From Ectobacillus panaciterrae DSM 19096 (GTDB lineage: Bacteria; Bacillota; Bacilli; Bacillales; Bacillaceae_G), in the NCBI RefSeq assembly GCF_000430785.1, contig NZ_KE387246.1:1-64000 (forward strand): a DNA stretch of 64,000 nt. Direction: 5' to 3'. Of the stretch, positions 14,005 through 54,057 are shown in pieces. How positions within the stretch are numbered: the first letter of the stretch is position 1; each line of letters starts with the position of its first letter. Position numbers and translations under genes: made by a program. Below the pieces are notes generated by a model. The model did not search any database, was not told where the DNA came from, and saw only the letters and a program-made list of their open reading frames with translations.

Positions 14005-14192
14005 TATATATATGAGTGAATGATAATTTCGACATTTCCATGTGCTATGTGCAACCAAAAGGGAGTATGGTATGCTTCTTCTCTCTGGTTTACCCTTTCA
14101 TGAACCACTACAAAGGTTTAACCGCTTCTGCACGCCGCCGGATGATCTCTCCCCACTATATAAAAAGATGGTTTTTTATTCACTTGTATATA
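14005..14192 (+). repeat. MITE-like interspersed repeat, copy B (subfamily 2)
   Basis: Ends are imperfect inverted repeats, TATATATGAGTGAAT on the left and ATTCACTTGTATATA on the right. The interior is nearly identical to 33213-33397 (shared blocks AAAAGGGAGTATGGTATGCT and GGATGATCTCTCCCC) and shares a core with copies A and D. It lies in the 400-bp gap between the patatin gene and the transporter. Reading frames inside it look fortuitous. The rest of that gap, 13853-14004, holds nothing I can identify. Confidence 0.8.
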
Positions 14193-24180: not shown

Positions 24181-25599
24181 GTGAAAGCGGAAGATTACAA
24201 AGTGCTGGAGTATGCAATTGACGAAATTACGGAGATCGCGAAGGGATTCGGTCTTGATTTTTATCCGATGCGTTATGAAATTTGTCCTGCAGATATTATC
24301 TATACATTTGGTGCGTATGGCATGCCGACACGATTTTCGCACTGGAGCTTCGGAAAACAATTTTACAAGATGAAACTGCATTACGATTTAGGATTAAGCA
24401 AAATTTATGAACTTGTTATTAATTCGGATCCGTGCTATGCATTTTTGCTGGAAACGAACTCATTAATTCAAAACAAGCTTATCGTAGCACATGTATTGGC
24501 ACATTGTGATTTCTTTAAAAATAACACTCGCTTTGGCAACACCAAACGCGATATGGTCGAAAGTATGGCTGCAACAGCGGACCGGGTCAAGCATTATGAA
24601 CATAAATACGGCAAGGAAGCAGTCGAAAAATTCTTGGATGCTGTGCTTGCCATTCAAGAACACATCGATCCGTCTTTAATGAGACCGAAGCTGGCATGGA
24701 CGCTGGAAGAGCTGGAGGAGGAAGAAACAGAAACAAAAGCATCAAGTCCATACGATGATTTGTGGAACTTGGATAAACGAAGTAAAAAACAAGAATCGCA
24801 GCCGATTCGCCGCAAAAAGAAATTTCCGCCGCAGCCTGAGAAAGATATTCTATTATTTATTGAGGAGTACAGCCGTGAACTTGAAGAGTGGCAGCGCGAT
24901 ATTTTAACCATGATGCGGGAAGAAATGCTGTACTTTTGGCCGCAGCTGGAAACAAAGATTATGAACGAAGGCTGGGCAAGTTACTGGCATCAGCGCATCT
25001 TGCGCGAAATGGATTTAACGAGCGAGGAAGCTGTTGAGTTCGCAAAGCTGAACGCAGGCGTCGTCCAGCCGTCGAAAACAAGCATCAACCCGTACTATCT
25101 CGGACTGAAAGTGTTTGAAGATATCGAAGAGCGTTATAACAACCCCACAGAGGAGATGAAGCGAGACGGTGTAAAACCTGGATCGGGACGCGAGAGAATG
25201 TTTGAGGTGCGCGAAATTGAGTCGGATATTTCTTTCCTGCGCAACTATTTGAACAAGGATCTTGTCATGCGTGAGGATATGTATCTCTTCCAGAAGCAAG
25301 GCAAAGATTATAAAATTGTCGACAAACGCTGGGAGAAGGTGCGGGATCAGCTCGTAAATATGCGTGTCAACGGCGGCTTTCCGTACATTACAGTAAACGA
25401 CGGAGACTATTTAAAGAACGGAGAGCTGTATTTGAAGCATTGGTTTGAGGGAATTGAGCTTGATGTGAAGTATTTGGAGAAGGTTATACCGTATATGCAG
25501 CAGCTTTGGGGACGTTCCGTGCATCTGGAAACAGTGGTTGAAAACAAGGCTGTGCTGTTTACGTTTGATGGAAAGATGTCACATCGGAAGTATTTGTAG
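24181..25599 (+). CDS. spoVR: stage V sporulation protein SpoVR
   Basis: SpoVR-family protein needed for normal spore cortex formation in B. subtilis; biochemical role unclear. The GTG at 24181, 7 bp after AAGGGGG, gives 472 residues, close to the family length; the longer frame starts 26 codons earlier with a hydrophobic stretch and no ribosome binding site. Conserved segments include FGMPT-like [14 protein letters not shown], the AHCDFFKNN segment and NEGWASYWH near the middle. A terminator follows directly. A decayed copy of its last 230 bp lies 200 bp downstream. Confidence 0.93.
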
Positions 25600-27215: not shown

Positions 27216-27302
27216 TTGGGTTCCTTTTAGATATATACCATGGAAAAAAGAACGGCAATAATTTAGAGCTGTAAAATAAAAATTATGTATGGGGGCTTGA
27301 AT

Positions 27303-28010
27303 ATGGATCTATTTTCGTTGGAATTTTTAACAGCGCTTTTGTCGATTGTCGTAATCGATTTAGTTCTGGCAGGAGATAATGCAATTGTCATTGGTTTGGC
27401 CGCAAGGAACTTGCCGAAGGATCAACAAAAGAAGGTTATTATTTGGGGAACAGTTGGAGCCGTTGTAATTCGTGCATTGGCAACGATGGCAGTAGTATGG
27501 TTATTGAAAATTCCTGGTTTGTTGCTAGTCGGCGGTATCTTGCTCATTTGGATCGCTTATAAGCTGCTTGTGGAAGAAAAAGGACATGACGTGCAAGCGG
27601 GAGCGAGTATGTGGGCGGCAATTCGTACAATTATTATTGCTGATGCACTAATGGGTCTTGATAACGTATTAGCTGTTGCAGGGGCAGCACATGGCAGTTT
27701 CTTGCTCGTCGTTCTTGGTTTGGTCATTTCCGTACCGATTGTGGTATGGGGAAGTACCATTATTCTGAAATTCGTAGATCGCTTCCCGATTATTATTACA
27801 ATTGGAGCCGGGGTGCTTGCGTGGACAGCAACAAAGATGATTGTAGAAGAACCGTTTGTTGCCCCTTATTTTGCAAATCCGGTCATCAAATATGGCTTTG
27901 AAATTTTCGTGGCAGCTGCAGTAGTGACTGCTGGAACCATGAAAAAGAAAAAACAAGCGAAAGAAACTCTGCATCATGCAGAACCGATGAAAAAACAGCA
28001 TTCGAGTTAA
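27303..28010 (+). CDS. TerC family manganese exporter
   Basis: A 235-residue TerC protein with about seven hydrophobic segments and the metal-pathway motifs DLVLAGDNA near residue 19 and DALMGLDNVLAVAGA near residue 109, each carrying the conserved DN pair. TerC homologues under yybP-ykoY control (YkoY/YceF in B. subtilis) export Mn2+, supporting secreted metalloenzymes. Start ATG 27303 behind GGGGGC; the reading frame's earlier ATG has no ribosome binding site. A terminator follows. Confidence 0.92.
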   Translation: MDLFSLEFLTALLSIVVIDLVLAGDNAIVIGLAARNLPKDQQKKVIIWGTVGAVVIRALATMAVVWLLKIPGLLLVGGILLIWIAYKLLVEEKGHDVQAGASMWAAIRTIIIADALMGLDNVLAVAGAAHGSFLLVVLGLVISVPIVVWGSTIILKFVDRFPIIITIGAGVLAWTATKMIVEEPFVAPYFANPVIKYGFEIFVAAAVVTAGTMKKKKQAKETLHHAEPMKKQHSS

Positions 28011-28132: not shown

Positions 28133-28161
28133 TTGACTGGAGATGAGCTCTTCGCTATAAT
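28133..28161 (+). promoter_or_regulatory. near-consensus sigma-A promoter
   Basis: TTGACT, a 17-bp spacer and TATAAT, the best sigma-A promoter I see in the window. It drives the 37-residue protein gene at 28294. Confidence 0.85.
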
Positions 28162-28170
28162 AGCTAAGTA

Positions 28171-28208
28171 CTCATAAGTTGACGTTAACGTAAATGTTAA
28201 CTTGTGAG
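28171..28208 (+). promoter_or_regulatory. 38-bp imperfect palindrome at the transcript start
   Basis: Arms CTCATAAGTTGACGTTAAC and GTTAACTTGTGAG-type complement, starting about 10 bp after the -10 box. It may be an operator (the TTGACGTTAACG core recalls MerR-type sites) or a 5' hairpin in the mRNA. Confidence 0.6.
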
Positions 28209-28293
28209 TTTTAGTAGGATGCAAATGATTTGTTTTACAAACCAACTATGAAAAGATTCTTCAAGACATCCCACCAATAAGGAGGAAACGCAT

Positions 28294-28407
28294 ATGATAA
28301 TTCGTTTTATGCTCACGGGATTCTTCTCATTAACTGCCATCACGCTTATGGGATATCAATTAATTGAAATTGTTCATGCATATAGTGATTTATTTCATAA
28401 AAACTAA
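28294..28407 (+). CDS. 37-residue single-pass membrane protein
   Basis: A short ORF encoding one hydrophobic helix (about residues 5-27) followed by IVHAYSDLFHKN. The evidence that it is expressed is strong: near-consensus promoter at 28133, AAGGAGG ribosome binding site 7 bp before the ATG, and a 22-bp perfect terminator 3 bp after the stop. I do not recognise the family. The transcript would be about 290 nt with a 125-nt leader that begins with a palindrome. Confidence 0.8.
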   Translation: MIIRFMLTGFFSLTAITLMGYQLIEIVHAYSDLFHKN

Positions 28408-28409
28408 AG

Positions 28410-28462
28410 AGACAATATGAAAGGGTGCGGAATGTTCCGCACCCTTTCATATTGTCTTTTCC
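28410..28462 (+). terminator. 22-bp perfect terminator
   Basis: Arms AGACAATATGAAAGGGTGCG and complement with a 4-nt loop, then TTTT. Unusually long and perfect. Confidence 0.92.
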
Positions 28463-28541
28463 CATACATGACAGGAGGATTGCTGCATAAAATAAGGGAG
28501 CATTGCATGTCATACATAAATATTGCAAGGAGAAAGCAGCC

Positions 28542-29669
28542 ATGTTGTTTTACTTTGAACTTGCTGTCATTTTATTAAGCACAAAGCTCGCTGGTGATAT
28601 AAGCGTACGATTGGGACAACCGGCTGTTCTGGGGAAGTTGCTTATTGGAATCATAATTGGCCCAGCTATATTGGGGATTGTGGAAACATCAAAGCTGATT
28701 GATGAGCTGAGCGAAATCGGCGTGCTTCTTCTTATGCTCATCGCTGGCTTGGAAACGGACTTAGATCAGCTCAAGCAGAATTTAAAAGCTTCTCTTGCTG
28801 TAGCGCTTGGTGGCATTATACTCCCGTTTCTTGGCGGCTATGGGGCCGGGCTTTTTCTTGGAATGTCTCAGGCAAGTGCCATTTTCCTCGGTCTGCTTCT
28901 TTGTGCAACGTCTGTCAGTATTTCTGTTCAGACACTTCGGGATTTTGGAAAGCTTAATACGAGAGAGAGCACCACGATTTTAGGCGCAGCCGTTTTTGAC
29001 GATGTGCTTGTTGTTATTTTATTGGCGTTTGCGATGAGCTTTCTCGGTGGAGAGGATGTGAATTTAACGCTTGTCATCGTAAAGAAGCTCGTTTTTTTTA
29101 TTACCATTGTCCTTATTGGCTGGAAGGCGGTTCCTTTTATTATGAGAGTTCTGTCTCCGCTGCGCGTATCAGAATCGCTCATTAGCGCTGCGCTCATTAT
29201 TTGCTTTTCATTTGCGTACTATGGCGAGCTGATGGGGATTGCCGGAATCATTGGCTCATTTGCCGCTGGTATTTCGATTTCTCAAACTTCTTACAAGCAT
29301 GCAGTGGAAGCAAAGCTGGAGCCAATTGCGTATGCAGTTTTTGTTCCCATCTTTTTTGTAAGCATCGGCATGACAATTTCTTTTAAAGGGCTGGGAGATC
29401 AAATATGGTTTATTGTCATTGTAACGATTATAGCCATTTTCACGAAATTGATTGGTTCTGGGTTAGGAGCAAGATGGGCTGGGTTTAATTTGCGTTCTTC
29501 GTTTGGCATCGGCGCAGGGATGGTATCGCGCGGAGAGGTAGCCCTTATTATTGCCTCTATCGGACTGGAGTCAAAGCTGTTAGCGCAAGAATATTTTACA
29601 GCCATTGTGCTTGTTGTTATTTTAACAACTGTCATCACCCCTCCTTTGTTAAAAAAACTTTTTATATAG
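28542..29669 (+). CDS. CPA2 family cation/proton antiporter
   Basis: A 375-residue membrane antiporter of the KefB/NapA type with about 11-12 helices. Conserved features are GQPAVLGKLLIGIIIGP near residue 26, LLMLIAGLETD near residue 62 and the FDDVLVVILLA segment near residue 155. It lacks the C-terminal TrkA-N domain. Start ATG 28542 behind AAGGAG. Ion specificity (Na+ or K+) cannot be told. Confidence 0.9.
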   Translation: MLFYFELAVILLSTKLAGDISVRLGQPAVLGKLLIGIIIGPAILGIVETSKLIDELSEIGVLLLMLIAGLETDLDQLKQNLKASLAVALGGIILPFLGGYGAGLFLGMSQASAIFLGLLLCATSVSISVQTLRDFGKLNTRESTTILGAAVFDDVLVVILLAFAMSFLGGEDVNLTLVIVKKLVFFITIVLIGWKAVPFIMRVLSPLRVSESLISAALIICFSFAYYGELMGIAGIIGSFAAGISISQTSYKHAVEAKLEPIAYAVFVPIFFVSIGMTISFKGLGDQIWFIVIVTIIAIFTKLIGSGLGARWAGFNLRSSFGIGAGMVSRGEVALIIASIGLESKLLAQEYFTAIVLVVILTTVITPPLLKKLFI

Positions 29670-33212: not shown

Positions 33213-33397
33213 TATATACGAATGAATTATAAATTCGACATTTCCATGTGCTATGTGCAATCAAAAGGGAGTATGGTATGCTTCCTTTCTCTGGTTTACC
33301 CTTGCATGAACCACTACAAAGATTTGACCGCTTCTGCACGTCGCCGGATGATCTCTCCCCCCTATAAAAAGACGGTTTTTTTATTCACTTATATATA
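33213..33397 (+). repeat. MITE-like interspersed repeat, copy C (subfamily 2)
   Basis: Nearly identical to 14005-14192 inside (AAAAGGGAGTATGGTATGCT; GGATGATCTCTCCCC; AAAAAGACGGTTTTTTT). Ends TATATACGAATGAAT and ATTCACTTATATATA form the inverted repeat. It fills most of the 320-bp gap between the convergent murP and arsB genes. Confidence 0.82.
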
Positions 33398-45595: not shown

Positions 45596-45715
45596 ATGAT
45601 CATTCCCTTCTGATCCTGTTTGAATTCAATTGCATACGCATGGGAGGTAGTGCAGTAATTTTACTCTACCTGTAAAGAGAAAAGCAAAGAAGCTGGATGC
45701 TTATAAAATATCACT

Positions 45716-45912
45716 TATATAAGTCCACTTTGTTATTCCGACATATCTATCGTTCGCCACATAGAACAAAAGGGAAACTGCGCTCGCTCCCTCTTTATGC
45801 TTTACCCCTGCATGGGCCACGAAAAGGGTTTGACCGCTTCTACGCTTAGCCCGATGATCTCTCCCCCTAAAAGAAAAGTTTTATGTCGATTTTTTTAGTT
45901 GCATTTATATAG
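45716..45912 (+). repeat. MITE-like interspersed repeat, copy D (subfamily 1)
   Basis: Nearly identical to copy A read in reverse. Shared blocks include AAGTCC...CTTTGTTATTCCGACATATCT, AGAACAAAAGGGAAACTGCG and CCACGAAAAGGGTTTGACCG. It ends in TTTTTTAGTTGCATTTATATA. Most of the 573-bp gap before galE is this element and its neighbour. Confidence 0.82.
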
Positions 45913-53669: not shown

Positions 53670-54057
53670 TTGTTCTGCGCCTGAACGAGCCGGTTCCGCT
53701 TTTCGTGATGTCTAGCTCCACCGGCTAGGTGCTGCCACCAGAGAACCTCGCCCACACAAAAGCAAAAAGCGCTTTTGAGGGGCGAGAACCTCTGGTTCTG
53801 CGCCTGAGCGAGCCGGTTCCGCTTTTCGTGATGTCCAGCTCCACCGGCTAGGTGCTGCCACCAGAGAACCTCGCCCACACAAAAGCAAAAAGCGCTTTTG
53901 AGGGGCGAGAACCTCTCCGATTCCGCTTTTCTTGTGTCTAGCTCCATCGGCCAGCTCCCAACGCCAAAATAACCTTCCCCATACAAAGCCAAAAAGCGGC
54001 TTTGATGGTGAAGAACATTTTGACGAGGGAGCTAAGCGGGCCGATTCCGCTTTTCTA
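53670..54057 (+). repeat. tandem cluster of long-hairpin repeat (three units plus a partial)
   Basis: A right-end fragment (53670-53710), then units at 53711-53833 (complete), 53834-53934 (right arm truncated) and 53937-54057 (diverged). In the first unit CACCGGCT/AGCCGGT, AGGTGC/GCGCCT, CCAGAG/CTCTGG, CCTCGCCC/GGGGCGAG and AAAAGC/GCTTTT build one extended hairpin. The third unit changes both strands of several arms, for example TCGGCC/GGCCGA and AGCTCCC/GGGAGCT, so pairing is preserved. No coding content. Confidence 0.9.

Follow-up and report, generated by a model that had tools for sequence, protein, structure and literature searches.

A Bacillales-specific family of single-helix membrane microproteins represented by a compact gene in Ectobacillus panaciterrae

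Introduction

Most of the small membrane proteins for which tuning of a sensor kinase is known are, to our knowledge, single cases, the majority of them from enterobacteria. In Staphylococcus aureus, ScrA activates the kinase SaeS by direct interaction between transmembrane (TM) helices, for which the helix alone is sufficient (PMC12239555). The enterobacterial MgrB is a single-TM microprotein which binds the sensor kinase PhoQ and changes its activity (PMC10576120). A further single-TM microprotein, KdpF, belongs to the potassium uptake system KdpFABC, whose operon can be under the control of a c-di-AMP riboswitch (PMC6488665).

Here, a 37-codon open reading frame (ORF) in a 64,000-nucleotide stretch of the genome of E. 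panaciterrae DSM 19096 (contig NZ_KE387246.1, hereafter the window) is compared with these systems. The family to which it belongs resembles ScrA in that its members are small membrane proteins with one (here predicted) TM helix. ScrA, however, has 88 amino acids, is encoded apart from its kinase and acts on SaeS, whereas 26 members of the microprotein family are encoded beside the kinase proposed as their target. With MgrB the family shares the single TM helix, and the binding to a kinase, a feature of MgrB, is proposed here by analogy. MgrB is a Gram-negative protein of 47 amino acids with periplasmic cysteines and inhibits PhoQ, whereas no conserved cysteine was found in the microprotein family. 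The response regulator encoded beside these 26 members is closest to ArlR of S. aureus when the regulator alone is compared with solved structures, but the ArlRS-like pair of Ectobacillus is unlinked to the ORF. KdpF is likewise a single-TM microprotein, but differs from the family described here, which has no Pfam or NCBIfam match; kdpABC genes were not noticed beside any of the examined loci.

Membrane microproteins that act on larger membrane proteins are already known in general. In the resources searched, no description was found of the family itself, its two recurrent genomic pairings or a riboswitch-linked paralogue. Since 73 of 142 hits in this Bacillales-wide family directly adjoin either two-component system genes or the gene of a fixed partner, they provide directly testable protein pairs, and an orphan microprotein would join the outputs of the c-di-AMP riboswitch.

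Transcription unit

The region from 28133 to 28460 is a monocistronic gene of a Bacillales-specific family of single-helix membrane microproteins of 36 to 48 residues (Table 1). All parts of the compact unit named in the original prediction are present, namely the promoter, the AAGGAGG ribosome-binding site (RBS), the 37-codon ORF and a terminator-like hairpin with 22 perfect base pairs.

Table 1. Features of the microprotein gene and its neighbours in the window.
Feature	Position	Strand	Basis or remark
TerC family protein, YjbE subfamily	27285..28010	+	neighbour judged incidental
Sigma-A-type promoter TTGACT-17-TATAAT	28133..28161	+	11/12 consensus matches
5' stem-loop, 17-bp stem including 3 G-U pairs, 6-nt loop	28170..28209	+	RNA folding
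RBS AAGGAGG	28279..28285	+	8 nt before ATG
37-amino-acid single-helix membrane microprotein MIIRFMLTGFFSLTAITLMGYQLIEIVHAYSDLFHKN	28294..28407	+	homologues, conservation, predicted helix
Long perfect hairpin, probable (bidirectional) terminator	28407..28460	+	RNA folding
CPA2 monovalent cation/proton antiporter	28503..29669	+	likely start ATG 28541; neighbour judged incidental

The promoter is the sole match of 11/12 quality on the + strand of the 64-kb window. On both strands together three such matches were counted, and shuffled sequences gave 0 to 6, so that the match is no proof in itself; what counts is its position, shortly ahead of a verified gene.

The stem-loop begins 9 nt past the -10 box, at about +1 of the expected transcript, and folds with -20.6 kcal/mol (z -6.7) and all stem positions paired. 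A 38-bp palindrome had been predicted at the transcript start and taken as a hint of regulation. While a hairpin does lie at this place, its true extent is 28170 to 28209, and as DNA it is an imperfect palindrome, three of its 17 pairs being G-T. Because G-U pairs keep the RNA stem but break the DNA symmetry, a DNA operator is less likely, and the hairpin is probably an RNA element such as a 5' stabiliser of the mRNA. The leader sequence is unique, neither it nor the palindrome having a copy elsewhere in the E. panaciterrae genome. Reading the sequence ahead of L004, the nearest homologue, by eye rather than by folding revealed no such hairpin, and no Rfam element was detected in the unit, including the c-di-AMP riboswitch (RF00379) in the leader. 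At the 3' end, the 22 perfect base pairs lie within a stem of 25 to 26 bp in total (-41.9 kcal/mol), followed on the + strand by a run of four T only.

Conservation and predicted structure

Its homologues, a bias of changes towards third codon positions and the RBS found before the homologues show that the ORF is genuinely coding. Three copies are present in the E. panaciterrae genome, the window copy included. A second Ectobacillus genome has two strong matches and a weak one, and none was found in two further congeners. When the window copy is aligned with L004, its nearest homologue, 10, 4 and 18 differences fall on first, second and third codon positions, respectively; compared to the paralogue L002 the numbers are 5, 3 and 22. 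As read from these codon positions, the family is shown to be under purifying selection, and the conservation at synonymous-biased sites on which the original prediction had staked the peptide was found. The motif AGGAGG, as a full or 5/6 match, precedes nearly all homologues, when for each of them the start codon with the best RBS is picked.

Among 72 unique family sequences, F11, A15 and Q22 are invariant and R4, S12, A29, E25 and D32 nearly so. The window copy is homologous over its full length and carries R4, F11, S12, A15, Q22, E25 and A29. The conservation is periodic, peaking at 103 degrees (p = 0.03 by shuffling), as expected if one helix face packs on another helix. AlphaFold models the microprotein as one helix (residues 2 to 36, pLDDT 95.7), and the window peptide is predicted to be a single TM helix. 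Homologues, codon bias and structure model agree with the earlier view of a conserved single-helix membrane peptide. No model in Pfam or NCBIfam matched the microprotein, and no relative was found in the PDB by sequence.

Distribution of the family

With a profile of seven sequences, 157 of 299 sampled Bacillales genomes gave a match at E ≤ 0.05; at E < 1e-5, 142 hits were obtained in 137 of the 299 genomes. Beyond Bacillales, one clear match was found in a class-wide draw and otherwise almost none. Homologues stem from Neobacillus, Oceanobacillus, Halobacillus, Priestia, Schinkia and others. Copies are also carried on plasmids of Priestia megaterium, while phage-borne homologues were not found. 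As predicted for an ORF of this size, the family escapes most annotation: the member of Bacillus amyloliquefaciens (WP_013352436.1) is annotated only as a hypothetical protein, and the Priestia plasmid copies are unannotated.

A tree, though poorly resolved, places the five close Ectobacillus copies together with those of genome G017 and of the Priestia plasmids (99/81); the window copy groups with L004 (100/94), and members linked to a kinase mostly cluster together. Stand-alone copies include the window copy, L004, those of the Priestia plasmids and of Halobacillus, and others.

Linkage to a two-component system

In 22 of the 142 hits, the ORF is followed by two genes, one for a response regulator of the OmpR type and one for a kinase with a HAMP domain, and the match to the kinase domain model starts 707 to 918 bp downstream. 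In four others the ORF follows the kinase gene, which lies 726 to 1194 bp upstream. All 26 kinase-linked loci are co-directional, and two different gene orders recur. The nearest solved structure to the response regulator of these loci is S. aureus ArlR, with 162 bits over 117 amino acids for the receiver and 93 bits for the DNA-binding domain; the best full-length chain among solved structures gave 178 bits.

The explanation that we prefer overall, at somewhat less than even confidence, is a single-helix accessory protein packing against a larger membrane signalling protein, the ArlS-like kinase where the genes are linked. The peptide would be embedded in the membrane, with the conserved side of its helix (F11-A15-L18-Q22-E25-A29-D32) packing on a TM helix of the larger protein; conserved polar residues on one face, together with the recurrent coupling to membrane proteins, suggest such a helix-helix contact. 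By analogy to the pairs MgrB-PhoQ and ScrA-SaeS, the packing might tune the activity of the larger protein. Since single-helix proteins switching sensor kinases are established, the ArlS-like kinase is the best candidate target where it forms an operon with the ORF, a proposal with good support in the linked lineages only.

Most homologues have no adjacent kinase gene. At the window copy neither the ArlRS-like system nor the partner protein described below adjoins, and a kinase is encoded elsewhere in the genome. This ArlS-like kinase is located on contig 3 (G000:C3:190059-190808), unlinked to the ORF. The Ectobacillus copies might act in trans, possibly on this kinase, and for the window copy a high expression level would be set by the strong promoter, the 5' hairpin as a possible mRNA stabiliser and the strong RBS. 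For the window copy, a kinase is no more than a candidate target. Among four genomes of the genus Ectobacillus, the two with the ORF (G000 and G002) also have a strong kinase match, and the other two (G001 and G003) have neither; in G017 the ORF is present and the kinase match is weak. A profile HMM of kinase-linked members scored higher than one of partner-linked members by 8 to 11 bits for L002, L003, L005 and L007; the window copy gave 61.6 versus 59.5 bits and L004 52.9 versus 55.5 bits. No kinase enrichment was observed among genomes with a non-adjacent ORF (14 of 111, versus 22 of 162 genomes without the ORF), and for unlinked copies the kinase as a universal target is rejected. It is the evidence for the window copy, consisting of the four genomes, these two fractions and an HMM margin of 2 bits, that keeps our confidence at this level.

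Mimicry of a kinase helix by the peptide was also considered and rejected. Ungapped profile scoring gave p = 0.79 for TM1; for TM2 it gave p = 0.02, but p = 0.09 for the whole protein, and the hhalign probability was 0.1%.

The unlinked ArlRS-like gene pair of Ectobacillus is adjoined by genes for a PspA/LiaH-like protein and a His-rich membrane protein (L091, 1190-2617), which hints at a link to envelope stress.

Linkage to a small membrane protein

The main rival explanation starts from a second neighbour. A membrane protein of about 105 amino acids, with two predicted helices and the C-terminal motif LxPVFYQSNYLI, is encoded on the same strand in 47 of the 142 hits, its gene ending 33 to 74 bp upstream of the ORF. 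Since this accounts for 47 of the 50 strong matches to the partner, and weaker partners precede at least 10 further copies among the 40 loci first counted as unlinked, the family could instead be the small subunit of a two-protein membrane complex with this protein, or of a widespread membrane protein encoded elsewhere; the kinase would then not be the general target and the kinase operons a side branch. The peptide may also be matched to its partner, as residue 23 is G in 36 of 42 partner-linked and S in 17 of 23 kinase-linked members. Against this stands that no recognisable partner was found in the Ectobacillus clade, the window copy being alone, and that the motif is missing from the ORFs of about 100 codons which precede L002 and L007. 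On balance this explanation is considered rather unlikely. AlphaFold gave two helices for the partner, at low confidence.

In B. amyloliquefaciens the partner and microprotein genes are located between a gene for an alanine/glycine cation symporter and parC/parE (L097, 5614-6117), a placement that recurs in other genera. The B. subtilis gene ynfC, between parC and alsT, may be the equivalent of the partner gene found at this place in B. amyloliquefaciens; a literature search on ynfC yielded a passing mention only. A third recurrent context was observed at six loci (L128, L129, L131, L143, L154 and L156), where an azlC-azlD-like pair ends about 90 to 100 bp ahead of the ORF and a gene for a HAD-family hydrolase follows it.

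Paralogues behind a c-di-AMP riboswitch

The c-di-AMP riboswitch RF00379 is located about 100 nt ahead of the paralogue L003 on contig 100 of E. panaciterrae and ahead of L005/L039 in E. funiculus, with 105 and 102 bits (gathering score 38). RF00379 was not found beside the ORF at any other scanned locus (L033-L036, L077-L082 and L119-L158 lay outside the scan). At both loci (L003, 1251-1617; L039, 2760-3117) the riboswitch is followed by a 38-codon family ORF and a hairpin past the stop codon. A strict terminator scan did not list the hairpin of L003 and listed that of L039 on the opposite strand only.

A microprotein of potassium or osmotic stress, tuning a cation transporter via c-di-AMP, would fit the riboswitch directly ahead of the paralogue in two Ectobacillus genomes, the control of K+ uptake by such riboswitches, e.g. 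of kdpFABC (PMC6488665), and the CPA2 antiporter downstream of the window copy. It is nevertheless improbable, because the riboswitch is absent before the window copy and the other scanned homologues, the adjacency to the antiporter is not conserved and the peptide matches neither KdpF nor any Pfam family.

Under the preferred reading, an accessory helix on a signalling protein, the sister paralogue in Ectobacillus would be under c-di-AMP riboswitch control. A bolder extension, to which we give little credence, is an order-wide modular helix to which a sensor kinase has been paired in some lineages and a dedicated two-helix protein in others; it would have been amplified in Ectobacillus with one copy under the riboswitch, so that c-di-AMP would set kinase activity via a 38-residue peptide.

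Neighbouring transporters and toxin-like features

That the microprotein regulates TerC or the antiporter, as first suggested from their position on either side of the ORF, is very improbable. Among all loci collected, TerC adjoins the ORF in only two, the window and L006 of E. funiculus, where the terC gene is adjacent and convergent. In G017, in which gene names were assigned by reading translations, an antiporter of 80% identity retains its surroundings of terC, an rpiR-type regulator gene and murQ, but the interval between terC and the antiporter gene lacks the small ORF and is occupied by an MscS-like gene. For these reasons transporter regulation was not accepted as the reason for the gene position; the neighbours that do recur are the two-component system or the protein of about 105 amino acids.

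Equally hard to credit is a role as the membrane toxin in a type I toxin-antitoxin pair, for which the short hydrophobic peptide, the strong promoter and RBS, the structured leader and the plasmid-borne copies in Priestia would speak. No strong antisense promoter was found near the 3' end in a scan of the window sequence, and toxins of this type rarely show long-term conservation of specific polar residues or lie co-directionally within two-component operons.

Repeats elsewhere in the window

Fragments between 25793 and 25997 share 79 to 90% identity with the 3' end of the SpoVR-like gene ahead of them (25329-25564) and represent a partial tandem duplicate or pseudogene. A dispersed repeat of about 190 bp was found at 33213-33397, 14007-14192, 45715-45911 and 1987-2186 (copies 79 to 91% identical), with similar-looking stretches on other contigs of the same genome (L091, L093); it is possibly a small non-autonomous mobile element. 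In addition, a direct tandem duplication of 122 bp with 98% identity is located at 53672-53916.
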